36,580 nt of DNA from an uncultured Bacteroidales bacterium (GTDB lineage Bacteria > Bacteroidota > Bacteroidia > Bacteroidales > UBA4417): positions 1 through 36,580 of the forward strand of contig CAIWMA010000547.1 of the NCBI GenBank assembly GCA_903913645.1, given 5' to 3'. The notes under the pieces were generated by a model, which saw only the letters and a program-made list of their open reading frames with translations, searched no databases and was not told the origin of the DNA. The position numbers were made by a program, and so were the translations under genes. Of the stretch, positions 1 through 13,113 are shown piece after piece; position 1 is the first letter of the stretch; each line of letters begins with the position of its first letter.

Positions 1-1223
1 ATGATGGCCCGTTTATAACCAAACTATCCGTTTCCATGGCGAATCCGGATTTGGTTTTTGCCGTTGGAAACGCCGGTTTATATCGTTCAACAGATTTTGG
101 TGAAAATTTTAGCCTGTATCCTGTTTACACGAATTGGGCGAGAAACTCCATAGTATCTAGCTCTCACCATGTTGAAGTTTCACGGGCTAATGGAAATATT
201 GTATGGGCCGGTGGCGGTATGGCAACAAGTTCAGGTTTGCAGATGCAGGTATCAACCGATAATGGGTTAAACTTTAACGCGCTCGAAGATTATTCACTCG
301 TAAACATGAAAGCTCATATAAGCGGGCTCGCAACCCATCCAACCGAAGACTCAACAGCTTATGTTTTGTTCTCGCTGAAAGGTGCGCCAAAAGTGCTTCG
401 CACCAGAGATTTAGGGGTAAGCTGGGAAGATATATCAGGCTTTGGAACCAATAAAACAAGCTCGAACGGTTTTCCCGATGTTATCGTAAATTGTTTGCTG
501 GTAATGCCTTATGACCCAAATATCATTTGGGTTGGTACTGAAATCGGTTTATTTGAGTCCACCGATAATGGCGAAAACTGGCATGTGGCAAATAATGGTT
601 TACCTCCTTTAGCGGTTTACCAGATGAAAATAAGTGGCGATCAGGTTGTTATGGCATCACATGGGAGAGGCATCTGGTCAGTGACAATTCCGGAATTAAA
701 TAATACTCCTTTTGTTATAAAATTTGCTCAGCTAAATGCGACGCATCTTTCCTTAAGTGCTAATCTGAAAGTAGTTTACGATTCTGTTGAGATTTACCTG
801 GACAACACTTTGTATTCAACGGAAACGGATACGTATATTGGTGAAAATATTTTTCCTTTATCCACAAAATTAGCAGGCAACCATGTTGCGTATATAGTCG
901 GATATATTGATGGTGTGGCCTTCCGGTCAAATATAGTTTATATTACTTCAATCTTTGCCAAACTTGATCCTGTAAGCGAAATAAGTCAAACAGGACTGTA
1001 TCCCAACCCGGCAGGTAGCTTTTTTATGTTCGACCTGGATGAGAAATACAATAAATATAAAATTGAACTCTTTTCTTTAAGCGGGCAGAAAGTATTATCT
1101 CTCGAAAATTCCAATGCCATCAACAACAAGGTAGATGTATCTTCATTAATGGAAGGTAACTATGTAGTTAACCTAAATTATGGAACTATTAAGGAGACTA
1201 AAAAGTTAATAATAAGCCGATAA
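1..1223 (+). CDS. Secreted BNR/sortilin-like repeat protein with T9SS sorting domain (C-terminal part, cut by window edge)
   Basis: The frame is open to the left edge (codons run in from position 3), so the Met at 36 is internal and the N-terminus is missing. The visible part has several Asp-box-like repeats of the S-x-D-x-G-x-x-(F/W) kind (YRSTDFGENF, VSTDNGLNF, FESTDNGENW), as in beta-propeller BNR/Vps10-like domains. A linker and beta-sandwich-like stretch follow. The last ~75 residues form a type A T9SS sorting domain: GLYPNPAG start, the middle IELFSLSGQKVLSL, and a basic end LIISR. In the family this domain directs export across the outer membrane by the type IX system and is cleaved on the surface. 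A PorT-like T9SS protein is encoded later in the window. Substrate and enzymatic activity cannot be told from this fragment. Confidence 0.85.
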   Translation, partial: DGPFITKLSVSMANPDLVFAVGNAGLYRSTDFGENFSLYPVYTNWARNSIVSSSHHVEVSRANGNIVWAGGGMATSSGLQMQVSTDNGLNFNALEDYSLVNMKAHISGLATHPTEDSTAYVLFSLKGAPKVLRTRDLGVSWEDISGFGTNKTSSNGFPDVIVNCLLVMPYDPNIIWVGTEIGLFESTDNGENWHVANNGLPPLAVYQMKISGDQVVMASHGRGIWSVTIPELNNTPFVIKFAQLNATHLSLSANLKVVYDSVEIYLDNTLYSTETDTYIGENIFPLSTKLAGNHVAYIVGYIDGVAFRSNIVYITSIFAKLDPVSEISQTGLYPNPAGSFFMFDLDEKYNKYKIELFSLSGQKVLSLENSNAINNKVDVSSLMEGNYVVNLNYGTIKETKKLIISR

Positions 1224-1230
1224 AAATAAA

Positions 1231-1265
1231 CAGGGGGCGAAATAAATTCGTCCCCTGCTTATTTT
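1231..1265. terminator. Bidirectional intrinsic terminator between convergent genes
   Basis: An 11-bp stem (CAGGGGGCGAA pairing with TTCGTCCCCTG, one G-U pair) has a 5-nt loop. It is followed by CTTATTTTC on the plus strand and by TTTATTTTTA on the minus strand. It lies 8 bp after the stop of the secreted protein and downstream of the hydrogenase operon on the other strand, so it can serve both. Confidence 0.85.
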
Positions 1266-1314
1266 CATTGCTAAACTTCATAATTTAAGAAGTTGTATTT
1301 AAGCTAGAGCAGTG

Positions 1315-1788
1315 TTACTTACTATTCTGCAGCGAATTCACTAAATCCTTTACTGTTTTAACGGCTTCAGGAATTGCGGCTTCAACCTCAGGAGTCAATT
1401 CCATTCCCATATCCTGGAAATCTTTTATTGAAATGGCAACAAGATGAATTTTGGGCATATTTCCCAATAAAAAAGCAGCATCCAGCAGATCTTTAAGGCC
1501 TATTTCGTGAGCACTTAACTGTGACGGAAAATCCTTGGCATATTTAGGATACAAAACCCTTACATGCCCTGCCGGAAACTGGTCAAGTGCTGCATCAATA
1601 ATAATAACGGTTTCATAGGATTGGATAAATCCAAGCAAATGAAATCCACCAGTTCCGCCATCCATTAGGTCGGCATTCGTATAGCCTTCTTTTTCCAAAG
1701 CGGATACAACATGTATACCCACACCTTCATCATTCAGTAATATATTTCCGATCCCGAGAACCAGGATTTCTTTTTGTAATTCAATCAA
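1315..1788 (-). CDS. hyaD: [NiFe]-hydrogenase maturation protease (HyaD/HybD family)
   Basis: This endopeptidase removes the C-terminal tail of the hydrogenase large subunit once nickel is inserted. It has the family start ILVLGIGNILLNDEG and the three residues expected to bind nickel: Glu in NDEG, Asp in VIIIDA and His in LSAHEIG (HybD E16, D62, H93 equivalents). It is the last gene of the hydrogenase operon, about 160 bp after the cytochrome gene. No ATG or GTG is available in front of the conserved core. The frame offers TTG at 1788 (157 residues, family-like N-terminus) and TTG at 1845 (176 residues). I prefer 1788, because 1845 lies inside a long inverted repeat and would add 19 residues unlike the family. 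The start is uncertain; the family call is firm. Confidence 0.9.
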   Translation of the reverse strand: MIELQKEILVLGIGNILLNDEGVGIHVVSALEKEGYTNADLMDGGTGGFHLLGFIQSYETVIIIDAALDQFPAGHVRVLYPKYAKDFPSQLSAHEIGLKDLLDAAFLLGNMPKIHLVAISIKDFQDMGMELTPEVEAAIPEAVKTVKDLVNSLQNSK

Positions 1789-1841
1789 AATTCTGCAGTT
1801 AAAATTTTCTATTAAAAGTATAAATTCGTGTTGATTTAAAA

Positions 1842-1920
1842 ACAAGGATCAACGGTTTTTGATTTTAGATGTACTACTTATTCAGTTTTACTTCTAAAAT
1901 CTTAACTCATTAATCCTTGT
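1842..1920. repeat. Long nested inverted repeat between cytochrome b and protease genes
   Basis: Outer arms ACAAGGAT (1842-1849) and ATCCTTGT (1913-1920) enclose inner arms GATTTTAGA (1861-1869) and TCTAAAATC (1893-1901). The two 11-nt stretches between them do not pair. Read on the minus strand, the outer arm ends in a T-run (TTGTTTTTAAA). It could be a weak attenuator or an RNA processing site that lowers protease expression relative to the structural subunits. No known element is recognised. Confidence 0.45.
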
Positions 1921-1946
1921 CCAATATTCAGTTTATATAATGTATA

Positions 1947-2666
1947 TTAATCTTTAGGGCAGTCTTCCGACTTGTTATCATGACGCTCAATTACATCTTC
2001 CTCAATGAATTTCCAGCCACCTATCATGGAGGAAGTTACACCGCGGCGTTCGATATAATCATGATAAAATACCAGGTAAATATGCACCATGGCAAACAGG
2101 ATGAAACCCCACATCAGTATATGGTGCAATTGCCTTACATGCATATCGCCACCCATAAAAGGAACGATCCATGAAAATAGCTTTGGCAGAAATGCTGTGC
2201 TCATGGCAGCATACATTCCAAACCCGGTGAGGCATTGCAACAGGAAGATCAGGAAAGTAATGAAATAGATAAAACTGGCAAGTGAATTGTGCCCGATTGA
2301 ATCTATCTCTTTATGCGAAACCTGTAAAACATCAACTTTGATTACATTAATAATTTCCTTCCATTGGCAACGTTTCAATGGAATAAAATTATACCAGCGC
2401 GAAAATTCATTTCCAACAAAACCCCAATATGTACGGAATACAAAGTTGAAGAAGAATACAAATGCGCTCACGAAGTGGATGAAGCGTACGGTACCGAACC
2501 AATAATTAAGGTAGGCTTCGGTACCTCTCATAAATGCAAGAGGGTTGCCAATCAGAAAACCTGTAACGCAAAGCACAGTCACGCATAGTGCATTGACCCA
2601 ATGATAGACTCGAACAGGCATTTCCCAGACATGCACTTCACGCATGGGTATAGTCCGGCTTCTCAT
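1947..2666 (-). CDS. hyaC: Ni/Fe-hydrogenase b-type cytochrome subunit
   Basis: A 239-residue dihaem membrane anchor that passes electrons from the periplasmic hydrogenase to the quinone pool. Four hydrophobic helices are visible (about residues 21-41, 61-80, 129-153, 182-202). Candidate haem ligands are His22 (VYHW), His64 (RFIHF), and His181/His182 and His195 in the last helix region (QLHHILMWGF, VHIYLVF), the usual pattern of the HyaC/HupC family. The N-terminal motif VWEMPVRVYHWVNAL is typical. The ATG lies only 2 bp after the large-subunit stop, so translation is probably coupled. The physiological acceptor is probably menaquinone, inferred from the menG homologue in this window. Confidence 0.95.
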   Translation of the reverse strand: MRSRTIPMREVHVWEMPVRVYHWVNALCVTVLCVTGFLIGNPLAFMRGTEAYLNYWFGTVRFIHFVSAFVFFFNFVFRTYWGFVGNEFSRWYNFIPLKRCQWKEIINVIKVDVLQVSHKEIDSIGHNSLASFIYFITFLIFLLQCLTGFGMYAAMSTAFLPKLFSWIVPFMGGDMHVRQLHHILMWGFILFAMVHIYLVFYHDYIERRGVTSSMIGGWKFIEEDVIERHDNKSEDCPKD

Positions 2667-2668
2667 AA

Positions 2669-4390
2669 TTAATAGGTTTTAACTTCGTGAATGCTGGTTC
2701 CGTTTTCATCATACACGTGCACGGCGCAGGCCAGGCAAGGGTCAAAAGAATGGATGGTACGCAATACTTCCAGCGGTACCTTAGGATCAGCAACCGGTGT
2801 TCCTATCAATGATTCTTCATATGCCGAACGTTTTCCTGCAGGATCACGGGGTGAAGCATTCCATGTTGTAGGCACTACTAATTGATAATTTTCAATCTTC
2901 TTGTCTTTTATTACTATGAAATGTGACAACGCGCCACGGGGAGCTTCAACCATACCAATGCCTTTTGCTTCCTTTGGCCAGGATTCTGGTTCCCATTTCT
3001 CATTGTTCATGGTGCGGGAGTCTCCGTTTTTAATGTTGGCCAGAAGTGACTGGTAAAATTCGAGTGCCCAGTCGCAGGTAAGTTTGGTTTCGAGTCCACG
3101 CGCTGCAGTACGGCCAAGCGTTGAGAATAATGCCGTTACAGGCACATCCAGCGCTTTCAGTGCACTATCAACAACTTCCTTGAATTCCGGTTTGCCCGAA
3201 GCATATCCGACAAGCATTCTTGATAATGGTCCTACTTCCATCGGGTATCCTTTCCACCTCGGGGTTTTTACCCAACTGTACTTTTGCGATACATCCAGGT
3301 GATCGTAAGGCGGTTTAGGTCCGGTATAATTAAACTTGGTCTCTCCATCCCATGGATGTAATCCAACTTTGTCGCCTTTTGAATAATCGTACCATGAATT
3401 ATTTACATATTCCTGTATTTGTTCAGGATCATCAGCTTTAATTTCGTGGATTTTACTCAGGTCGCGGTTTAAAATAACACCTCGTGGAATTTTAAAGCTT
3501 TCCGGATTGTTGTACCCGTTGGTCGGGAAATCGCCGAACGACATATAATTTGTCAATCCACCTCCGATGGCACCCCAGTCGCTCTTATAGAAAGAAGCAA
3601 TGGCAAGTAAATCGGGAATATAAACCTGGTCGACAAAAGTTTTTGCATCTTCGAAAAGTTTGCCCACCATGGCAAGTCTTTCAGCATTAACGGCATTGGC
3701 TTCATCGATGTTAATGGAACAAGGAACTCCGCCTACAAGATAATTCGGGTGAGGATTTTTACCTCCGAAAATAGTATGGACTTTTACAATTTCCTTTTGC
3801 CATTCCAGTGCTTCGAGGTAATGTGCCACTGCAAGAAGATTTACTTCAGGAGGCAGTTTGTACGCCGAATGTCCCCAGTAGCCGTTTGCAAAGATGCCCA
3901 ACTGTCCGCTTTCAACAAAGTTTTTAAACTTTTTCTGAACATCAGTAAAATAGCCTACTGAGCTTTTTGGCCATGCCGAAATACTTTGCGCTAATGTTGA
4001 AGTGGCAGCCGGACTTGCTTTAAGTGCGGAAACAACATCAACCCAGTCGAGAGCATGTAGCACATAGAAATGTACCACGTGATCCTGGATATACAATGCG
4101 TTTGCCATCAGGTTGCGGATAAGTTCTGCATTTGGTGGTACAGAAATTCCAAGCGCATTTTCAACTGTTCTTACAGATGTCAGCGAATGTGTGGAGGTAC
4201 AAACACCGCATACACGTCCTACAAAAGCCCATGCATCGCGCGGATCGCGGCCTTTCAGAATGGTTTCAATACCACGAACCATAGTTCCGGCGCTATAGGC
4301 ATCGGTGATTACTCCGTTAGTAACTTCAATTTCAACCCGCAAATGACCTTCGATTCGGGTAATGGGATCTATAACGATTCTTTCAGCCAT
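2669..4390 (-). CDS. hyaB: [NiFe]-hydrogenase large (catalytic) subunit, group 1
   Basis: 573 residues, normal for the family. This subunit holds the NiFe(CN)2CO site that splits H2 in the periplasm. The proximal motif RVCGVCTSTHS gives Cys61 and Cys64, and the distal motif DPCLACAVH gives Cys552, Cys555 and His558. A 15-residue tail follows His558 and is the expected target of the protease encoded downstream. The N-terminus (IDPITRIEGHLRVE) is the classical large-subunit signature. The protein has no signal of its own and is expected to be carried across the membrane with the Tat-signal small subunit. It starts 2 bp after the small-subunit stop. The hyp genes for the cofactor are not in the window and must be elsewhere. 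Confidence 0.98.
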   Translation of the reverse strand: MAERIVIDPITRIEGHLRVEIEVTNGVITDAYSAGTMVRGIETILKGRDPRDAWAFVGRVCGVCTSTHSLTSVRTVENALGISVPPNAELIRNLMANALYIQDHVVHFYVLHALDWVDVVSALKASPAATSTLAQSISAWPKSSVGYFTDVQKKFKNFVESGQLGIFANGYWGHSAYKLPPEVNLLAVAHYLEALEWQKEIVKVHTIFGGKNPHPNYLVGGVPCSINIDEANAVNAERLAMVGKLFEDAKTFVDQVYIPDLLAIASFYKSDWGAIGGGLTNYMSFGDFPTNGYNNPESFKIPRGVILNRDLSKIHEIKADDPEQIQEYVNNSWYDYSKGDKVGLHPWDGETKFNYTGPKPPYDHLDVSQKYSWVKTPRWKGYPMEVGPLSRMLVGYASGKPEFKEVVDSALKALDVPVTALFSTLGRTAARGLETKLTCDWALEFYQSLLANIKNGDSRTMNNEKWEPESWPKEAKGIGMVEAPRGALSHFIVIKDKKIENYQLVVPTTWNASPRDPAGKRSAYEESLIGTPVADPKVPLEVLRTIHSFDPCLACAVHVYDENGTSIHEVKTY

Positions 4391-4392
4391 GA

Positions 4393-5505
4393 CTATAATA
4401 CTTTAGGTGTTTCTGTTTCGGAAGCTGTTTCGGGAGCATTGGTTATCTCCTTTTTTTTGCGGATGTTGGTGTAGATGGCATGTCCTGCGACGCCTACAGC
4501 GGTAGCAACTCCAAGTCCGACACCGATTTTGTCGGCAGTGGTTTCAATTCCAAATCCAGCAATACTTGGCAGGTGCTGGTAGAATGGACCGTTATCCCAG
4601 AATCCTTCTTCAGAACACCCGATACATGGGTGGCCTGATTGAATTGGATAACTTACTCCATCATTCCATTTGATTATTCCACATGAATTATAGGTAACAG
4701 GACCTTTACATCCCATTTTATAGAGACAATATCCGCGTTTTGCGCCTTCGTCGTCGAAAGACTCAACAAACAAACCGGCATCAAAATTAGCGCGGCGATA
4801 GCATGTATCGTGCACACGGCGTGAATAGAAGGCTTTAGGGCGACCCAAGGCATCAAGTTGAGGAATGCGGTCGAAAGTTAGTAAATGAACGACTACGCCT
4901 GCCATAACATCAGCTATAGGAGGGCATCCCTGAACATTAATCACAGGTTTGCCACTGATAATTTTATGCACAGGTCTAGCACCAGTAGGATTTGGGCTAG
5001 CAGCCTGAACACATCCTGCCGAAGCGCAGTTACCCCAGGCAACAACAGCTTTACAGTTTTTAACGGCTTCTTCCAGAATCTGTTTCGCACTTCTGCCGCC
5101 TATGCAGCAGTATGCTTCGTTTTCGGTCGGAATTGATCCTTCCACCATTACGATGTATTCGCCAGGGAATTTAGCCATTACGGCTTTGTACGCTTCTTCG
5201 GCCTGAACACCGGATGCTGCCATCAGGGTTTCCTGATAATCCAGCGAGATTTTACCAAGTACAATATCTGCTACAATAGGGTGCGAAGCCCGGATAAAAG
5301 ATTCACTGCAGCATGTACATTCCTGGAAATGGAACCAAATAACCGGGAGCCGGGGTTTGGTTTCAAGTGCTTTTACGATCTGGCCGATACCGCTGGATTC
5401 TAATCCAAGGAAGGCTGCCATTGTTGCACAAAATTTAAGAAAATCTTTCCGGGATATCCCATCCCCCCTGACTTCCTCATAAAACGAGGGTTGCTTATTT
5501 TCCAT
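4393..5505 (-). CDS. hyaA: [NiFe]-hydrogenase small subunit, O2-tolerant type (six-Cys proximal cluster)
   Basis: 370 residues from the chosen ATG (5505); an upstream in-frame extension to 5574 lacks family features. A Tat-like signal stands at the N-terminus (ISRKDFLKF, residues 17-25), with Arg-Lys in place of Arg-Arg. Proximal-cluster ligands Cys63, Cys66, Cys160 and Cys194 are present, plus the two extra cysteines Cys65 (ECTCCSESF) and Cys165 (CASAGCVQ), the hallmark of the [4Fe-3S] cluster of O2-tolerant enzymes such as E. coli Hyd-1 and Ralstonia MBH. Glu122 aligns with Hyd-1 Glu76. Distal ligands are His232, Cys235, Cys260 and Cys266; medial ligands are Cys275, Cys294 and Cys297. A C-terminal helix (about 326-348) followed by IRKKK anchors it in the membrane. 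It is the first gene of the operon. Confidence 0.97.
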   Translation of the reverse strand: MENKQPSFYEEVRGDGISRKDFLKFCATMAAFLGLESSGIGQIVKALETKPRLPVIWFHFQECTCCSESFIRASHPIVADIVLGKISLDYQETLMAASGVQAEEAYKAVMAKFPGEYIVMVEGSIPTENEAYCCIGGRSAKQILEEAVKNCKAVVAWGNCASAGCVQAASPNPTGARPVHKIISGKPVINVQGCPPIADVMAGVVVHLLTFDRIPQLDALGRPKAFYSRRVHDTCYRRANFDAGLFVESFDDEGAKRGYCLYKMGCKGPVTYNSCGIIKWNDGVSYPIQSGHPCIGCSEEGFWDNGPFYQHLPSIAGFGIETTADKIGVGLGVATAVGVAGHAIYTNIRKKKEITNAPETASETETPKVL

Positions 5506-5761
5506 AAAGCTGTAGGTTTTAGTTAGTTCAATCGAATGTAAATATATAGATATATTTAAACATTTTAACAACAATATAATAAATTATTGTAATTTATACT
5601 CGTTATAAATAAGAAAAATGATATATCAAATCTTAACCTGACTCTTTTTGATAACGCCCGTAATTGTTTATACTTTGAAGGTTATTCGGTACTTTTTATC
5701 CTCTTTATCCGATTAGTAAAAATGGAATAAATGATATTCTAAAGGATTGAAATAGTAGAAA
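5506..5761 (-). promoter_or_regulatory. AT-rich leader of the hydrogenase operon with two short palindromes
   Basis: No gene is seen here. Two candidate operators stand out: TAAATTATTGTAATTTA (5580-5596, 7-bp arms around TTG) and the perfect palindrome TGATATATCA (5619-5628). The second overlaps a relaxed TAnnnTTTG box (TAAGATTTG on the minus strand, 5627-5635). No clear -33 element and no sigma-54 boxes are visible. Which regulator binds is unknown. No obvious terminator for the upstream receptor gene is seen, so some read-through is possible. Confidence 0.35.
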
Positions 5762-8353
5762 CTAAAAACTGATTTTAGCAGATACATTAAACGTCCTGCC
5801 CAACGACCAGAACCCGCTGAAAGTTTCAATATTATGGCCGGAGCCATCATCGCCACGGATTATAGTTTCTTTATTGAATAAATTCTGACAGCTTAACTGC
5901 AGTGAAACTGGAAATTGTTTCACAGCCATATCATATCCGGCGTATAAATCGAGCAAAGAGTAGGAGGGAATCCGATAAGGCTGAATCCTGTCATTGGGAT
6001 TATTGCGGTTTGCAGGATCGAAATTAGCGTACAACCTTTCATAAAAAACCCAATCGGCCGAAAACCTGAACCCGTCCACAGTATGATATTCTGCTGAAAG
6101 ACCCAATTGGGTTTGTGGTGCGTCACCTACATATAAACCTTTGGTGTAAACCATCATGCTATCAACAAGCACCTGGTTATCGTTGTAAATACTGGCTGAA
6201 ACATCATTCTGCCATTTCCAGTTGCCTATTGATGCAGTAGCAACCAGAGTAAAATTTTTCAGAACTTTATAGCTAACTTCGGCTTCAATTCCCTCGTGTA
6301 AGGCATTCAATCCACGAACCAGCGAACGGGTAAGAGTACTATCAGCCAGTTGAATGTTTTCGCGTGATAAAAGGGATTTATCCTTCCAAAGTGTATAATA
6401 AAGGTTTATCCGGGTTGTGATTTTGTCGTTATCGTAAGTATAGCCGACTTCGGCCGAAGTTATTTTTTCATTAACCAGGTCTTTTGCAACTGCATTTGAG
6501 AAATTCACATAAACGAATTTGTAGTATGGCTCGCGGGAGTAAAATCCTATGTTTCCATAAATATTCCCAAACCTGCCAATTTTATACCCCATTCCACTTT
6601 TAACATCAAATCCTGCTTTATTCACTGGCTCACTTAAAGGTTTTTCAGGATAATTATATGGATCCCTGCGCCTGTAATGGGTTCCGGAAAGCGTTGATGC
6701 TGCAAAAGTTGTAAGTTTTCCAATCTTATATTCCACCTGGCCGAAGACGTTACCATAACTTATCATAGAGTAATTATCAACGTTAATTATATCGCCTCGT
6801 TGTTTTATCTGCTTACGGCCATCGACACCAGCCTGCGACCATGCATATTGTTCCACCCAGAAATTGCCTCCCATCAGGTTGTCGACTGTTTCGTATAAAT
6901 GTGATTTGAAGTTCCGCAAATGAATTCCTGTTGTAATTTTAAGGTTATCATTTACATTCAGGGTAAGCGAACTTAACAGACCAACCCAATAATGATCCGC
7001 TTTGTAGTTCGTTATAATATTGTTTGAATAGCCTTTCACAATTGATCCGTCAGCCAATGTGGCTGAATCATTGTTAGTTGAATTAGTCAGAAATACCTGG
7101 TCAAAATCTATCTGGTCATTCTTCCTGTAAGTCCATGTTGGTTTGCCGTAATTGTATACTTCAGTATACTTGCCACCGCCCTTGCCAAACGAAACATAAG
7201 CTGAGGTGGCCAGGAACGCCTTAGGCGTGATGTTCCAATAGTGGTTGAGGTTTATCTGAGGTTTGTGATAAAAGTTCTCTGAGAGGCTTAAAATCTCTCC
7301 GTTATATTCACCCCAGTTTTTATTGTATTTAACACCGAATTTTTCGAAATCAGCCTGGCTCATGCCATAGTTCCGCTGACCGTGTTTTTCGGGGGCGCCC
7401 ATTGCGGTGAGTACGAGCTTATGTTTTTTACCAAATTCCCGGCTCAGGCTCAGGAAATAGGCCCAGCCTTTCACATAGGTGGCATCAACGAATCCTGGCC
7501 CAACTGTATGTGAACCAAGGAAAGTCAAGGAAGTTCCGTTTTTCATTTTGCCGGTCGAGAAACTCAGGGTTGTCTTGCTGTTTCCATAGTCCGAAATGCT
7601 GTATCGCAAAGCGCCACCAGCTATGGCAGAGGTTGATTTTGTAATAATATTGACAGTTCCGCCAACCGAATTCATGGCAACTCTCGAAGCGCCAAGACCA
7701 CGTTGAACCTGTATAGCTTCGGTTGCATCGGTAAGCCCGGTCCAGTTCGACCAGTAAACTAGCCCATTTTCCATACTGCTGACAGGCACCCCATTTAAAA
7801 GAAGCGATACATTTTCCTGCTGAAATCCTCGTATTGAAAGCCTGTCATCGCCGCTTCCACCGCCTTCCTTGGTGGCATAAATTCCGGGAGTCATCTTTAA
7901 TATTTCAGGATAATCCTGGTTACCAGTCTTCTGTTCGATAGTACGGGATTTAATATTCGAAATTGCTACAGGAGTATTTCGCTCAGTTATATAGGATGAT
8001 ATGATCTTTACCCCATCAAGGGACACCACGGTTGGCTCTAGTGCAATAACACCTATATTAATTACATGGGCTGACTTTTCGTTAACTTCGTAAGTAAAGG
8101 GTTTGTACGAAATGTGTGAGAACCGCAAAATCACTTTTACAGCATTTAAATTCAATTCAAAAGTACCGTTGTTTCCTGTTATGGTTCCGATGGATGTGCC
8201 TTCAACCTGGATTGAAATTCCCGAAATAGTTTCATTTGTATTAATATCGGTAACAGTTCCTTTTATTTTAAAAACCTGCGCGTTAAGATTCCCTGAAAGA
8301 AGTACCACAAAAAAGAAGAAGTGGAGAGTTATTAAAAGTCTTTTCATCATCAT
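5762..8353 (-). CDS. TonB-dependent outer-membrane receptor, predicted flavin (riboflavin/FMN) transporter
   Basis: 863 residues. It has a signal peptide (about 1-25, ending in NLNAQ), a carboxypeptidase-regulatory-like beta-sandwich domain (about 28-115, KGTVTDINTNETISG), a TonB plug (about 125-240, with ILKMTPGIY, LSIRGFQQENVSLLLNGVP and VGGTVNIITKS) and a long beta-barrel ending in an aromatic residue (SAKISF), as required for outer-membrane insertion. Such receptors take up scarce ligands with energy from TonB-ExbBD. The ligand is not evident from the protein alone. The leader carries an FMN riboswitch and terminator, so flavin uptake is the best inference. No susD-like partner is adjacent, which argues against a glycan system. 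Start ATGATGATG gives three equivalent Met choices. Confidence 0.9.
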   Translation of the reverse strand: MMMKRLLITLHFFFFVVLLSGNLNAQVFKIKGTVTDINTNETISGISIQVEGTSIGTITGNNGTFELNLNAVKVILRFSHISYKPFTYEVNEKSAHVINIGVIALEPTVVSLDGVKIISSYITERNTPVAISNIKSRTIEQKTGNQDYPEILKMTPGIYATKEGGGSGDDRLSIRGFQQENVSLLLNGVPVSSMENGLVYWSNWTGLTDATEAIQVQRGLGASRVAMNSVGGTVNIITKSTSAIAGGALRYSISDYGNSKTTLSFSTGKMKNGTSLTFLGSHTVGPGFVDATYVKGWAYFLSLSREFGKKHKLVLTAMGAPEKHGQRNYGMSQADFEKFGVKYNKNWGEYNGEILSLSENFYHKPQINLNHYWNITPKAFLATSAYVSFGKGGGKYTEVYNYGKPTWTYRKNDQIDFDQVFLTNSTNNDSATLADGSIVKGYSNNIITNYKADHYWVGLLSSLTLNVNDNLKITTGIHLRNFKSHLYETVDNLMGGNFWVEQYAWSQAGVDGRKQIKQRGDIINVDNYSMISYGNVFGQVEYKIGKLTTFAASTLSGTHYRRRDPYNYPEKPLSEPVNKAGFDVKSGMGYKIGRFGNIYGNIGFYSREPYYKFVYVNFSNAVAKDLVNEKITSAEVGYTYDNDKITTRINLYYTLWKDKSLLSRENIQLADSTLTRSLVRGLNALHEGIEAEVSYKVLKNFTLVATASIGNWKWQNDVSASIYNDNQVLVDSMMVYTKGLYVGDAPQTQLGLSAEYHTVDGFRFSADWVFYERLYANFDPANRNNPNDRIQPYRIPSYSLLDLYAGYDMAVKQFPVSLQLSCQNLFNKETIIRGDDGSGHNIETFSGFWSLGRTFNVSAKISF

Positions 8354-8370
8354 AAATTTTAGTCCTGAAA

Positions 8371-8400
8371 CAAAAATGCCCTGAAGAATTCTTCAAGGGC
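8371..8400 (-). terminator. Riboswitch-controlled intrinsic terminator
   Basis: On the minus strand GCCCTTGAAG and CTTCAGGGC form a stem with one bulged T and an AATT loop. ATTTTTG follows. The hairpin ends about 18 nt before the receptor start codon, so it can stop transcription and possibly also hinder ribosome entry. Its 3' arm TTCTTCAGGGCA is also present in the 5' P1 strand of the riboswitch. Confidence 0.85.
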
Positions 8401-8464
8401 TGATGACTAAAATACAGATGCACATTAACGCATGCCAGGAAACGGCAAGCGCCAAGTGATCAAT

Positions 8465-8578
8465 ATTCTTCTTCCATCCAGACTATACTGTCGGTACCGG
8501 AGTTAAACCGGTTCAATCCTTTTTACGGGAGTCGCGGACTGTACCGCCGATCGGGAATTGCACCCTGCCCTGAAGAAT
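8465..8578 (-). promoter_or_regulatory. FMN riboswitch (RFN element)
   Basis: Read on the minus strand, the conserved RFN segments occur in order: GGGCAGGGTGCAATTCCCGA, then CGGCGGTACAGTCCGCGA, then ACCGGTTTAACTCCGGTACC, then CGACAGTATAGTCTGGATGG. P1 is closed by ATTCTTC (8572-8578) with GAAGAAT (8465-8471). This matches the six-helix FMN-binding aptamer closely. It lies 111 bp upstream of the receptor gene on the same strand, with a terminator between them. FMN binding would therefore be expected to switch the receptor off. Confidence 0.96.
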
Positions 8579-8616
8579 GGCTAATCTGATTGAAATTCAA
8601 TTCAAAATTGCCGCTG

Positions 8617-8624
8617 CAAAGGTA
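8617..8624 (-). promoter_or_regulatory. Candidate -7 promoter box for the riboswitch-receptor transcript
   Basis: TACCTTTG on the minus strand fits the Bacteroidota -7 consensus TAnnTTTG and stands about 40 bp before the aptamer. A clear -33 TTTG is not seen at the expected spacing. Confidence 0.45.
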
Positions 8625-8738
8625 TAATTATTTCAGTCATGCAGCAGCATGGAATATGTATAAATGAAAATAACGAATATTTTGTTGCTATACAGATAAT
8701 TGCCGAATTTTGTCAGCAAAAGTAAAAGTGAGGATTTA

Positions 8739-9821
8739 CTACCGCGAAAGCTTCACTTCTGAACCTGGTTTTGGTTCATCGCCGGGTTGTAAATGATTGT
8801 ATTTACGTAGTTTATCAAGTTTAATGCATTTTTCCTGCGAAATAGAATACATGCTGTCGCCATTTTTAACTTTATAGACGTTATCCGGATTTTTCCGCTT
8901 TTTTGATTCCAGGTATAATATCTGCCCTGGAAGTATAGGATCACTTTCCAAAAGGTCGTTCTGTTTAAATACCTGGAAACTGAAAATCTTGAATTCCTTG
9001 GCAATACTCAGCCAGGTATCGTCCTTTTTTGCAAAAATAAATGGCACATTGCAATTCTGATATACTTTCCGACCCAATTCAGATGTATATAAAAGATCAA
9101 AAGCCGAAGGTACCGGCATTTTATAACTGTTACGGTAAATTATCCGTTCACCGCTATTTATGGAACTATTTTCCGGAACAATTACCTTTTTTGCAAAAGA
9201 TTTCTTTTCCGTTCTATCAGCCGTTTTTTTTTCATTTTTAACAGTCTGTTTCTTTTCAGTTTTTTCAGATTTGTAGTCATTTAATGCAATCTCTTCTGTA
9301 CTGGTAAGGCTATCATCCAATAAGTAAAGTTGGTTCGACTCGATTAACCTTATTAATATATTCGGATAATCGGGATTGGTTGCATAGCCTGCTTTTTTTA
9401 GCCCGAATGCCCAACCTTTGTAATCGGTGAGCGGAAGCGTAAAGAGTGCGGCATACCTGCTCCGTGTTGTTAAAAAGATGGAGTGATCACGGTACGATTC
9501 TTCAACACTGTTATATTTTCTGAAACACTCTTTTGCTTTGTCATCGTCGTAAAAGTAGGTATCACCAGGCCAGTTATTCTGGCATTTTATTCCAAAATGG
9601 TTCTTTGAGTCCAATGCCAGAACACTTTTGCCGCAACCACTTTCAATCATTCCCTGGGCAAGAGTAATGCTTGCAGGAATTTTATAAAGTTGCATTTCCC
9701 TGATTGCAGCTGATTTATATTGCTTTATATATGCGCCATAGTCGGTACTAATAAGTTTCTGTGCCGTTAATGAACAAGTTAAAATGAGAAAAAATGAGAA
9801 ATATGCGATTCGTTGCCTCAT
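8739..9821 (-). CDS. Secreted glucosaminidase-domain cell-wall hydrolase with LysM repeats
   Basis: 360 residues. An N-terminal signal peptide (about 1-20, IAYFSFFLILTCSLTAQ) is followed by a glucosaminidase/FlgJ-like domain (about 28-170). That domain contains ITLAQGMIESGCGKS, with Glu60 as the probable catalytic acid, and the downstream NHFGIKC and YRDHSIFL motifs. A lysine-rich linker (about 185-215) precedes two LysM-like modules (about 258-308 and 315-358, YKVKNGDSMYSISQEK) that bind peptidoglycan. The protein likely cuts the glycan strands of the wall during growth or division. It is a single gene with about 300 bp of non-coding DNA on each side. The architecture is common in Bacteroidota. 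Confidence 0.88.
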   Translation of the reverse strand: MRQRIAYFSFFLILTCSLTAQKLISTDYGAYIKQYKSAAIREMQLYKIPASITLAQGMIESGCGKSVLALDSKNHFGIKCQNNWPGDTYFYDDDKAKECFRKYNSVEESYRDHSIFLTTRSRYAALFTLPLTDYKGWAFGLKKAGYATNPDYPNILIRLIESNQLYLLDDSLTSTEEIALNDYKSEKTEKKQTVKNEKKTADRTEKKSFAKKVIVPENSSINSGERIIYRNSYKMPVPSAFDLLYTSELGRKVYQNCNVPFIFAKKDDTWLSIAKEFKIFSFQVFKQNDLLESDPILPGQILYLESKKRKNPDNVYKVKNGDSMYSISQEKCIKLDKLRKYNHLQPGDEPKPGSEVKLSR

Positions 9822-10129
9822 GAAAATTTCAGTTTAATTTGCAATATTACAAAATCCATGGCTTAGTTCGGCTTTTGTATAAATGAAGCAGCCATATAGT
9901 AAGGCGTATTTATTTTAAAGTTTTGATAAAAATATATTTATAAAAATACTAAACTTATAGAAACTTATTATAAATTTGTGGAATCAATAATAGAGTAAAT
10001 AAAAAAAATAATAAACATTGGTTTTGTCTTTGATGCATCAGGCTTAAATAGAAAGTTAGTAGTTTTTTGGTTAATAATTTGGTTCAGAAGTCCCCGTTGA
10101 AAAGCGGGGATTTTTGGTTTAGAAAATTT
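9822..10129 (+). ncRNA. Gene-free region with a candidate small RNA (about 9985-10115)
   Basis: No ORF of useful length is seen. A plus-strand TAAATTTG box (9971-9978) fits the -7 consensus. About 120 bp later a strong plus-strand intrinsic terminator stands alone. No plus-strand gene lies upstream that would need it, so the pair may bound a small RNA of about 130 nt. A perfect palindrome TGATGCATCA (10031-10040) lies in the middle. No -33 box is visible and no known RNA family is recognised. Confidence 0.3.
10091..10115 (+). terminator. Intrinsic terminator on the plus strand
   Basis: TCCCCG and CGGGGA pair over an 8-nt loop and TTTTTGG follows. The minus strand has no T-run after the stem, so the orientation is plus, away from any annotated coding transcript. 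It could still act weakly as the 3' end of the minus-strand rnhB transcript. Confidence 0.7.
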
Positions 10130-10726
10130 TTATCTTATTTCTGAAGCTTTTACCTGCACGGTAAATGTCAGGCGGTGGTAAGGAGTACTTCCAACCTGGA
10201 GTATTTTCCTGCGATGTTCAAGAGTTGGATAGCCCATATTTCTGTTCCATCCGTATGATGAATATGTTTCATGGAGTTTCAGCATATATTCATCACGATG
10301 AGTTTTTGCCAGAATTGAAGCAGCTGCAATGGAAAGATATAATCCATCGCCTTTTATAATACACTCGTGTGGGATATCCTGGTAGGATTTGAAACGGTTT
10401 CCATCAACCAATATCAGCTCTGGTATCAAAGAAAGATTCGCCAACGATTTATGCATAGCTAATATGGAGGCATTAAGTATATTGATTCTATCAATTTCAA
10501 TATTATCGACCATTTCAACATTCCAGGCTAAAGCATCATTTTCAATCACAAGGCGCAATTTGTTACGCTGCGCCGCAGTGAGTTTCTTCGAATCATTCAA
10601 AAGTGGATTAGAATAATTGTTGGGTAAAATAACAGCTGCTGCAAACACGGGCCCTGCAAGACAGCCGCGGCCGGCTTCGTCACATCCGGCTTCAATCAAA
10701 TGATTCGAGAAAGAAGATTTTAACAT
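10130..10726 (-). CDS. rnhB: Ribonuclease HII
   Basis: 198 residues, the normal length. The enzyme cuts RNA in RNA-DNA hybrids and starts ribonucleotide excision from DNA. The metal-binding acidic residues are visible: Asp16 and Glu17 in AGCDEAGRGCLAGPV, an Asp in LILVDGN, and a late Asp in LAKTHRDEYM. The motifs NDSKKLTAAQR and GYPTLEHR are typical of type II enzymes. It follows the DUF6427 gene by 90 bp on the same strand and is probably the last gene of the purD group. Confidence 0.97.
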   Translation of the reverse strand: MLKSSFSNHLIEAGCDEAGRGCLAGPVFAAAVILPNNYSNPLLNDSKKLTAAQRNKLRLVIENDALAWNVEMVDNIEIDRINILNASILAMHKSLANLSLIPELILVDGNRFKSYQDIPHECIIKGDGLYLSIAAASILAKTHRDEYMLKLHETYSSYGWNRNMGYPTLEHRRKILQVGSTPYHRLTFTVQVKASEIR

Positions 10727-10816
10727 TCTACTTTATTTTGTGGAATTCAATCAAATTTCTTCCTTAACTGGAGTTAAACCCTTAGCTAATTCCCATTAAA
10801 TTTAACAAACAAATAA

Positions 10817-11803
10817 TTAGCTTATTACCTGATAAACCCGCATGCTAACAAAAAGCAGGAAATATCCTAATGCCAGCATTTCGAACCAGAATTTGCGTTT
10901 TATCATTGTCACACTTCCGGTTACAAAAAACGCCATTGGAATAGAAAATAAATAATTAGCAGAAAGCATTGGCCATCCTGCAAACAACATGATAATACAC
11001 ACCGTAAAACTAAAGTTGAATAGAACCCATGACCTGCGCCGGAGACTTATAAGCTTGTCATTCATTATGTTAAGTACAGCTATCATTGTAACGGTCATAA
11101 TAAAGGTCGAAACGGAAAGCCAGATTGTGTTTATTGCTGAAAGCCCTGGAGCCAATATAAAGTTGAATAAGGCCGAAGTTAACTGATGTAAACCTGCTGG
11201 TAATTTATCGTTCCAGAAGAGTAAGGTGATATAATAGATAAATGGCAGTAAAAAGCCGATTATTGAAACTGCATATTCATGCCATGATGAGATGCGGTAT
11301 GTAATCAACGTAAACCAAATCATGAGGATCAAAAATGCCAGCGGGAAATAAAATAGTGCAGCAATTGCAATTGAAATAGATGCTGTAAATACCTGGTGGT
11401 AGGCATCTTGTTTTCCATACATTTCCATAATGGAATTCAATGCGATAATTATAAAGATTCCTGCAGGAAGAATGGCATGCATGGTTTGATAAGTGCTGCT
11501 CCAACTGTACGATAGTAAAAGGATAATTGCCGGAAGGAAATTACCTCGCTTGAAAAACCCGTTTGCCTGGTAAACATAAAACAGTATCAAAGCTTGTAAT
11601 ACAATCAAGAGTAGAGCAACCGAAACAATTAAAGTTGGGGAATTCTGCATCCAGCCTAACAGCAATATGTATAATGGTCCATCCGATGGAGTCAAAACAG
11701 GAGGTACAGGTTTAACAAAAGCCTGAAACCATGTCGAAACAAGAATTATAGTAAAAATTGTAAACTGTATAAATGTTCCAGATTTTGAAATCCACTTGAT
11801 CAT
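10817..11803 (-). CDS. DUF6427-like polytopic membrane protein
   Basis: 328 residues, almost all hydrophobic, with about eight to ten membrane helices and short loops. No catalytic motif is seen. The N-terminus (SDGPLYILLLGW) and overall form recall the Bacteroidota DUF6427 family, whose function is unknown. It starts 20 bp after the purD stop, so the two genes are probably co-transcribed. The family name is from memory of sequence style and was not searched. Confidence 0.7.
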   Translation of the reverse strand: MIKWISKSGTFIQFTIFTIILVSTWFQAFVKPVPPVLTPSDGPLYILLLGWMQNSPTLIVSVALLLIVLQALILFYVYQANGFFKRGNFLPAIILLLSYSWSSTYQTMHAILPAGIFIIIALNSIMEMYGKQDAYHQVFTASISIAIAALFYFPLAFLILMIWFTLITYRISSWHEYAVSIIGFLLPFIYYITLLFWNDKLPAGLHQLTSALFNFILAPGLSAINTIWLSVSTFIMTVTMIAVLNIMNDKLISLRRRSWVLFNFSFTVCIIMLFAGWPMLSANYLFSIPMAFFVTGSVTMIKRKFWFEMLALGYFLLFVSMRVYQVIS

Positions 11804-11823
11804 TATCCGTGAAGTATTATTAT

Positions 11824-13113
11824 TTAGTATTGCATCAGGTCTTTCCCGATATCACTGCGGAAATAGGCATCTTCAAACGTAATCTGAGAGGCTGATTCGA
11901 GAGATTGAACAATTGCAGCATTTAGATCATCCGCAAGGGTTGTAACAGCTATAACGCGGCCACCGGAAGATATGACATTTGCATTGATAGAACTTGTTCC
12001 TGCGTGAAATACTAAGCTTTTATCCACAGTTTCAAGGCCTGTTATCACCTTGCCTTTTGCATATCCTCCGGGATAACCTCCTGAAACGATCATCACGCAG
12101 GCGGCGGTCCGCTCATCAGTTTCCAGTTTTATTTTGGAAAGATTACCATCAGCCGTTGCCAGGAATATTTCCAACAGGTCATTCTTTATGCGGGGTAATA
12201 TCGATTCCGTTTCAGGATCACCCAACCGGACATTATATTCAATAACAAACGGATCGTCTTTTACATTCATCAATCCAAAAAACAAGAATCCCTGGTAAGG
12301 AATGCCATCTTTCCGCAATCCTTCGACAGTTGGTTTGATTACGCGGTTTTCCACTTTCTGCATAAATTCCTTGCCTGCAAAAGGCACCGGTGATATGGAT
12401 CCCATTCCGCCGGTATTGGTGCCAGTGTCGCCAATGCCAATACGTTTGTAATCTTTTGCTTCAGGCAAAACCAGGTACTCATGTCCGTTGGTAATGGCAA
12501 ATGCCGAAAGTTCTATTCCATCAAGAAATTCTTCAATAACCACCATCTCTGATGCTTTTCCAAATTTCTGGTTGGCAAGCATTTCGGTAAGTTCAACTTC
12601 TGCTTCACGTAATGTTTTGCAAATCAAGACACCTTTTCCTGCTGCAAGGCCATCAGCCTTAAGCACATAAGGCGGATTTAAAGTTTTAAGAAAAGCGATT
12701 CCTTCAGTGAGAGTATCTTTTGTAAATGTTTGGTAAGCACCTGTCGGGATGCCGTGCCTGATCATAAACTGCTTGGCAAAATCCTTGCTTCCTTCAAGTT
12801 CGGCGCCAGCTTTTTGAGGACCAATTATAGATATGTTTTTTAAGAGTTCGTCATCAAGAAAGTAGTCGTGAATTCCGAGAACTAAAGGATCTTCCGGGCC
12901 GACCACCACCAGATCAATCTTTTTTTCTAAAACAAACTTTTTAATGCTTTCGAAATCGTTGCCGCTTATCGGAACATTTGTGCCAACGGCTTGAGTGCCT
13001 GCGTTGCCGGGAGATATATATAGCTGGTTCAGCAAAGGACTTTGTGAAAGTTTCCAGGCTATGGCGTGTTCGCGGCCACCATGACCGATAAGAAGGACGT
13101 TTGTTTTATTCAT
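11824..13113 (-). CDS. purD: Phosphoribosylamine-glycine ligase (GAR synthetase)
   Basis: 429 residues, full length. It joins glycine to phosphoribosylamine with ATP in the second step of purine synthesis. The N-terminal motif NVLLIGHGGREHAIAWKL, the ATP-grasp segments (PPYVLKADGLAAGKGV, GIELSAFAI, NTGGMGSISP) and the metal-binding stretch VIEYNVRLGDPETE are all present. It heads a probable unit with the DUF6427 gene and perhaps rnhB. purB lies 2.4 kb upstream on the same strand. Confidence 0.98.
   Translation of the reverse strand: MNKTNVLLIGHGGREHAIAWKLSQSPLLNQLYISPGNAGTQAVGTNVPISGNDFESIKKFVLEKKIDLVVVGPEDPLVLGIHDYFLDDELLKNISIIGPQKAGAELEGSKDFAKQFMIRHGIPTGAYQTFTKDTLTEGIAFLKTLNPPYVLKADGLAAGKGVLICKTLREAEVELTEMLANQKFGKASEMVVIEEFLDGIELSAFAITNGHEYLVLPEAKDYKRIGIGDTGTNTGGMGSISPVPFAGKEFMQKVENRVIKPTVEGLRKDGIPYQGFLFFGLMNVKDDPFVIEYNVRLGDPETESILPRIKNDLLEIFLATADGNLSKIKLETDERTAACVMIVSGGYPGGYAKGKVITGLETVDKSLVFHAGTSSINANVISSGGRVIAVTTLADDLNAAIVQSLESASQITFEDAYFRSDIGKDLMQY

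Follow-up and report, generated by a model that had tools for sequence, protein, structure and literature searches.

An FMN riboswitch preceding a TonB-dependent receptor suggests an outer-membrane flavin receptor in riboflavin-auxotrophic Bacteroidales

The described flavin-uptake systems RibU, PnuX/RibM, RibN, ImpX, RibXY, and RibZ are located in the inner membrane, and we know of no energised outer-membrane receptor for flavins. Several of these flavin-uptake systems are controlled by the RFN element, the FMN riboswitch aptamer, as covered in the 2015 survey of riboflavin transporters, where neither "TonB" nor "outer membrane" was found in the accessible text and no such outer-membrane receptor is among the entries shown of its Table 1 (PMC4418817). 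Sun et al. (2013) reported FMN regulons consisting of riboflavin biosynthesis genes or riboflavin transporters and none in Bacteroidaceae; the same two terms have no mention in the main text of that study as far as it was available (PMC3766115). For vitamin B2, a 2019 survey of gut vitamin genes lists RibU, PnuX, ImpX, RibN, RfnT, RibZ, and RibXY, and "TonB" is not mentioned in the accessible part (PMC6593275). No FMN switch linked to a TonB receptor appeared in the accessible portions of four further articles (PMC12405394, PMC5756330, PMC11475020, and PMC13028884), and no flavin TonB receptor was found by title or the start of the abstract in the openly licensed PMC literature, among the matches listed.

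The combination of a riboswitch and an outer-membrane vitamin receptor is already known for B12 and thiamine; the new element here would be a predicted flavin receptor clade tied to a wide loss of riboflavin synthesis. Thiamine receptors of the BT2390 type, like the receptor described below, are preceded directly by a vitamin riboswitch, but the aptamer (TPP) and the vitamin differ. An example comes from Caldithrix abyssi, with the TPP switch 163 nt 5' of the receptor gene (PMC5317091). A second parallel is BtuB, an outer-membrane vitamin receptor governed by the B12 riboswitch; for Gluconobacter, a table lists a cobalamin switch 5' of a TonB-dependent receptor (PMC5756330). Our receptor scores far below the cut-off of the BtuB model TIGR01779 (35.4 vs. 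599.7 bits). PqqU (YncD) is, to our knowledge, not under riboswitch control. It mediates the TonB-dependent uptake of PQQ, a soluble redox cofactor (PMC12124388).

The locus studied here comes from an uncultured Bacteroidales bacterium of the lineage UBA4417 (GCA_903913645.1, contig CAIWMA010000547.1), and we refer to the whole stretch analysed, positions 1–36,580, as the window. On the minus strand, a promoter-like TAnnTTTG element, an RFN element, an intrinsic terminator, and a TonB-dependent receptor gene follow each other in this order (Table 1). The locus shares with the known FMN riboswitches (RF00050) the complete aptamer with a terminator and an antiterminator downstream, but the controlled gene is here an outer-membrane receptor. 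The initial annotation had described a complete minus-strand RFN element, a terminator, and a TonB-dependent receptor gene within 5762–8578, a span that misses just three bases at the aptamer start. All three features were borne out: the aptamer by cmscan, the terminator by a terminator scan and the hairpin energy, and the receptor by Pfam domains and the AlphaFold fold. Its observation that neither rib genes nor a SusD partner lie nearby also held, as none was found among the 10 window proteins scanned by Pfam (36 to 13113).

Table 1. Features of the locus, in minus-strand order
Feature	Positions	Strand	Basis
Promoter -7-like element TACCTTTG	8617..8624	-	TAnnTTTG conserved in family leaders
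FMN riboswitch aptamer (RFN element, RF00050)	8462..8581	-	cmscan 113.4 bits, E 6.9e-26
Aptamer 5' strand (stem P1 and beyond), ATTCTTCAGGGCA	8566..8578	-	exact 13-nt copy is the terminator 3' arm
Switching segment GCCCTTGAAGAAT, terminator 5' arm / antiterminator strand	8388..8400	-	duplex energies
Intrinsic terminator hairpin	8378..8400	-	terminator scan; hairpin -13.2 kcal/mol
Terminator U tract	8372..8376	-	sequence and terminator scan
Gene of the TonB-dependent receptor (863 aa), predicted to take up a flavin	5762..8353	-	ORF, Pfam, AlphaFold, orthologues

The aptamer matches the model over its entire length (1–138 of 138), well above the gathering cut-off of 66.2 bits, and nothing else in the 36.6-kb window reached an Rfam gathering cut-off. 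Because the match is complete and strong and the search of the genome found one RFN, the window's own, a chance occurrence can be ruled out. The TAnnTTTG motif, which we take to be the Bacteroidota -7 consensus, sits 29–36 nt 5' of the aptamer in all 13 family leaders, and it occurred by chance in 2 to 21 of 300 shuffled 60-base upstream pieces.

The terminator (CCTTGAAGAATTCTTCAGGG followed by CATTTTTGTT) was one of two terminator-like sites in a scan of 8300–8750, where 0.4 would be expected; the scan placed the stem at 8379–8398 on the minus strand, and the limits in Table 1 are our extension by eye. Thirteen nucleotides of the aptamer 5' strand recur exactly in the terminator 3' arm, and none of 200 single-base shuffles contained a repeat as long. 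The switching segment can therefore pair with either partner, with a calculated energy of -17.7 kcal/mol for the antiterminator duplex, compared with -7.5 kcal/mol for P1 and the hairpin energy given in Table 1. Terminator and antiterminator share this one segment and are thus mutually exclusive structures; without ligand, the leader adopts the antiterminator in its minimum-energy fold. Eight of the 13 family leaders have an exact repeat of at least 9 nt, and the remaining five (L014, L016, L019, L020, and L021) have one of 6–7 nt, no longer than in shuffles. Across 72 leaders, pairing of the aptamer 5' strand with the downstream leader had a median z of -2.7, with 48 of the 72 below -2, a result that is supportive of switching but uneven and that extends beyond the terminator arm. 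By analogy with the RFN family, we infer that the window leader is switched by FMN. When FMN is scarce, the terminator 5' arm would pair with the aptamer 5' strand as an antiterminator and the receptor would be transcribed. When FMN is plentiful, its binding would stabilise P1 and free the switching segment, so that the terminator would form and the receptor would be turned off.

The receptor contains a CarbopepD_reg_2 domain (residues 30–115) and a Plug domain (residues 124–233; PF07715, 55.7 bits vs. a cut-off of 23.9) above the Pfam cut-offs, without a match to the barrel family PF00593. The Pfam domains are those of a receptor alone, with none of the inner-membrane riboflavin transporters; by domains and fold, the protein is an outer-membrane receptor, in contrast to RibU, PnuX/RibM, RibN, ImpX, RibXY, and RibZ. 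It scored under the cut-off of every named NCBIfam receptor model, including SusC/RagA TIGR04056 (61.3 vs. 368.25 bits) and FecA (48.3 vs. 1100 bits). The AlphaFold model calculated with 61 clade sequences had a pLDDT of 83.6 and a pTM of 0.79; the 61-row alignment leaves out L079 plus about 18 further rows of the clade that were near copies, truncated, or late. All 50 matches listed of 882 in a Foldseek search with this model were TonB-dependent receptors or complexes thereof. The best match in the PDB was PqqU with PQQ (E 2.6e-35, TM 0.82 by target), but at 15% identity and with FecA close behind (E 5.6e-33, TM 0.81). The PqqU match establishes the fold; as to the cargo of the modelled receptor, it gives no more than a hint of a small redox cofactor.

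We identified 33 clade-specific positions that are conserved in at least 90% of the RFN clade (79 rows) and in at most 25% of the sequences outside (47 rows). Twenty-six of them fall within residues 445–862, and 17 of these 26 are in long loops, which make up 161 of these 418 residues by a hand count on the DSSP string of the AlphaFold model. The long loops presumably face outward because the turns at the opposite side are short. The clade-specific loop residues include R513, K612, E665, R676, and H840, and H478 in the barrel of the RFN clade is replaced by Asp in all 47 outgroup rows. These clade-specific residues are candidates for the binding site.

TonB-dependent receptors are mostly carriers of iron compounds. 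A profile-level search of the PDB ranked an unspecified TonB-linked receptor first, and the sequence-level matches were mostly ferric or siderophore receptors, mainly along the N-terminal and plug part. Together with the link between iron and riboflavin responses described for Vibrio in the accessible part of one report (PMC5816637), such matches might favour a receptor for another nutrient, such as iron, haem, or a siderophore, with the FMN switch tying its uptake to the flavin status. This alternative can be weighed by the distribution of the switch and of the riboflavin synthesis genes among the relatives.

Exactly one RFN was found in each of 13 of the 16 family genomes, and all 12 RFNs outside the window are directly 5' of the orthologous receptor (58–86% identical). 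The other three family genomes (G006, G007, and G010) have no RFN and, judged by score, no RFN-type receptor either, with best receptor matches of 268–531 bits vs. 1725 for the window; G007 is 97% complete and the other two are 90% and 64% complete. We extended the comparison to the best 80 of 231 relatives, which were chosen by the receptor sequence alone (86 to 38% identity) and belong to Bacteroidales or other Bacteroidota, with MAGs in 79 of the 80. An RFN precedes an RFN-type receptor in 73 of these 80, and in 62 of 69 when the 11 loci that are family loci again are set aside. These counts include L047, where the match is cut by the contig end, and L101, where the RFN belongs to a tandem receptor copy at 3181 rather than to the copy that fetched the locus. 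Five of the seven RFN-less loci (L055, L071, L088, L095, and L102) start at a contig end. Another, L078, has the receptor but has lost the switch, with a leader kept in its near twin L075 and no RFN found in its genome (G298). The seventh, L104 from Marinifilum fragile, is a receptor homologue outside the clade.

A tree obtained by a quick method without bootstrap, with the short L057 left out, groups the RFN receptors in a single set of 79 rows with an SH-aLRT support of 100. This set comprises 73 RFN rows, the window included, the five contig-cut rows, and L078, and the paralogues outside it have no RFN. None of 29 receptor homologues from 247 genomes of the class had a significant RFN, and with stricter search filters the only RFN among these 247 genomes was the window's own. 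Under the same stricter filters, 49 of the 50 genomes holding fetched loci, Marinifilum among them, contain exactly one RFN. We also considered whether homologues are placed under other riboswitches: a scan of 15 loci with all Rfam models at gathering gave RFN alone (L084 and L101), with no match in L078, L104, and 11 homologues from the class. Thus, the strong RFN score is accompanied by close homologues that were not found under other regulators, and the presence of the RFN-receptor pair in dozens of related bacteria points to a putative family of outer-membrane vitamin B2 receptors.

The genomes carrying the pair differ from their class in riboflavin synthesis, and we regard this metabolic difference as the evidence that decides the case. 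Lumazine synthase RibH (PF00885) is missing in all 16 family genomes and in 47 of the 50 genomes holding fetched loci, one of which is Marinifilum; it was found in 235 of the 247 class genomes and in 212 of the 216 good ones. DHBP synthase RibB (PF00926) is missing in 64 of these 66 genomes (the 16 and the same 50), and all 14 control genomes contain both families. The searches covered 50 of the 69 out-of-family loci; many of the 19 omitted were short or at contig edges. All 66 genomes contain flavokinase RibF (PF01687), with G001 and G278 having just the more divergent copy; this argues against incomplete assembly as the cause of the missing rib genes. With the synthesis genes missing and flavokinase kept, riboflavin must be obtained externally, and the window bacterium itself appears to be incapable of making it. 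RibB and RibH are both present in G270 (L044), and RibH alone in G300 (L082), so the auxotrophy is not strict among carriers. The receptor of L045 is identical to that of L044, yet the L045 genome has neither RibB nor RibH. Conversely, the receptor is dispensable for such an auxotrophy, as G007, 97% complete, lacks RibH, RibB, and, by score, an RFN-type receptor and retains RibF. Many carriers have a second RibF copy, located in a Rex/HydG-like cluster without an adjoining transporter, which gave no lead on the inner-membrane step.

The third genome with rib genes, Marinifilum fragile (G310), has both RibB and RibH. Its single RFN is just 5' of a RibD-like ORF, after which come RibE-like, RibB, and RibH ORFs (the RibD-like and RibE-like labels were given by eye). 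Judged from the gene order, the contrast is telling: the switch of the prototroph would serve synthesis, whereas that of the auxotrophs would serve the receptor. The retention of the switch with the receptor in carriers without riboflavin synthesis genes, its position 5' of the rib operon in the prototroph, and the lack of any further RFN found in those genomes all speak against a receptor for iron, haem, or a siderophore, which we regard as improbable. The proposal of the initial annotation that the receptor is a flavin-uptake protein under FMN control is supported by the conserved RFN linkage, the missing rib genes, and the kept flavokinase.

NiFe hydrogenase genes lie 3' of the receptor in some family members, the window included, which raises two other explanations. 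The true target of the switch could be this downstream operon as a redox system, with the receptor merely in between, because the hydrogenase genes are on the same strand in the window and in four family loci (L022–L025). However, L014, L015, L016, L019, and L020 have no hydrogenase genes downstream while RFN and receptor are still together, and among the 80 relatives such clusters occur in just L026, L027, L029, and L032, which are the same four genomes. The hydrogenase ORF in the window also begins 187 nt after the receptor stop. The loci that keep RFN and receptor without hydrogenase genes largely refute this explanation, to which we give next to no weight. The neighbouring hydrogenase genes also make flavin shuttling conceivable, so that the receptor might take up flavins as electron shuttles rather than as a vitamin, or else a flavin analogue. 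We find this very improbable because most of the carriers searched lack the riboflavin synthesis genes yet have flavokinase, so that a demand for the vitamin exists and is a sufficient explanation.

Other neighbours might indicate the form in which flavins are acquired. Downstream sequence of 5 kb or more is available at 57 loci; among these, a nucleotide pyrophosphatase/phosphodiesterase (PF01663) is found in the same-strand run 3' of the receptor in 26 and a PhoD-like phosphatase (PF09423) in 14, with both enzymes in 13; one member of each, when scanned, scored 305.8 and 89 bits, respectively. A second receptor usually lies between the RFN receptor and these genes. The pyrophosphatase is related to proteins of solved structure, namely ectonucleotide pyrophosphatases and bacterial phosphodiesterase-nucleotide pyrophosphatases. 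The TFPNHY motif is present in 17 of the 29 pyrophosphatase members, with no match in 12, two of which are truncated, and a crude pattern found a lipobox-like cysteine in 25 of the 29. Pyrophosphatase and phosphatase are separated by a median of just 5 nt (13 pairs), and the gap that precedes the pyrophosphatase is 81 nt (28 pairs). The first and second receptors are 238 nt apart (40 pairs), which makes co-transcription of the enzymes with the RFN receptor no more than a possibility. Of this set, the locus in the window has the receptor alone, and the enzymes were not seen at the loci of its family either. An MFS gene near the Lentimicrobium-type loci was rejected as a partner since an opposite-strand gene separates it from the receptor in 9 of 12.

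As predicted from their sequences, the neighbouring enzymes could convert FAD to FMN and riboflavin in the periplasm. The RFN receptor, with the second receptor in many relatives, would import FAD and FMN; the lipoprotein-like pyrophosphatase/phosphodiesterase would split FAD into FMN and AMP; the PhoD-like phosphatase would strip the phosphate; and riboflavin would pass the inner membrane, where RibF would rebuild FMN and FAD. Whole Bacteroidales lineages would then have given up riboflavin synthesis, exchanging a rib-operon switch for a receptor switch. We put forward tentatively, as a possibility that we favour less than its converse, that the RFN receptor is the outer-membrane entry of such FAD/FMN scavenging, with pyrophosphatase, PhoD-like phosphatase, and RibF downstream, for which Bacteroidales lineages traded synthesis.

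In summary, the best reading of the locus is a flavin receptor in the outer membrane of riboflavin auxotrophs that is repressed by FMN, and we consider it highly probable, with FMN binding, TonB-driven transport, and a flavin as cargo being what we infer. Energised by TonB, the receptor would carry riboflavin, FMN, or FAD to the periplasm of a bacterium auxotrophic for riboflavin. Dissolved riboflavin is tabled at 0.2–5 pM in aquatic environments in the accessible part of one source (PMC7609354), which makes high-affinity uptake plausible. If this reading is true, flavins would gain an energised outer-membrane receptor, and the finding would account for the survival of many uncultured Bacteroidales that lack riboflavin synthesis. 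Receptor and RFN would together be a predictive sequence family, which might make the cross-feeding of vitamin B2 predictable from genomes.

Two receptor leaders of relatives were compared: the whole RFN element and its platform, present at L075:5660-5990, are missing from L078:2050-2140, while the flanks of the gap are nearly identical in both loci. Searches of G298, the genome that holds L078, for RFN, lumazine synthase (RibH) and DHBP synthase (RibB) found none. On the sequences compared, the leader lacking RFN may represent a real loss or an assembly error. Within the family of the window's lineage, the 97% complete genome of G007 (2.3 Mb) encodes the flavokinase RibF, and searches of it for RibH, RibB, RFN and an RFN-type receptor found none. 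Many genomes carrying RFN-type receptors have a second, divergent RibF inside a conserved cluster (L155, in G000:C302, and L156-L162), whose partners, named by eye, are presumably a Rex-like regulator, a metallo-beta-lactamase-fold protein and a HydG-like radical SAM protein.

The surroundings of the receptors were also compared. The hydrogenase genes adjoining the window's receptor (see the table) occur at this position in some family members only. Downstream of the RFN receptor in 13 loci of relatives (L059, L061-L064, L067, L068, L071, L074, L079, L082, L090 and L101), a nucleotide pyrophosphatase and a PhoD-like phosphatase form one run, with a second TonB receptor lying in between in most of them. 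The RFN-free receptor paralogue at L136, in the window's own genome, is followed by a 407-aa lipoprotein-like ORF.

Features beside the receptor, elsewhere in its genome and in Marinifilum fragile
Feature	Location	Strand	Context
NiFe hydrogenase set: small subunit, large subunit, b-type cytochrome, maturation protease	window 1315-5574	-	downstream of receptor
Receptor paralogue, no RFN	L136:7721-10396	-	window's own genome
Single RFN with ribD-ribE-ribB-ribH-like operon directly after	L153:3270-7056	-	Marinifilum fragile

Judged from this arrangement, the rib operon of Marinifilum fragile, a Bacteroidota isolate, is predicted to be RFN-controlled.
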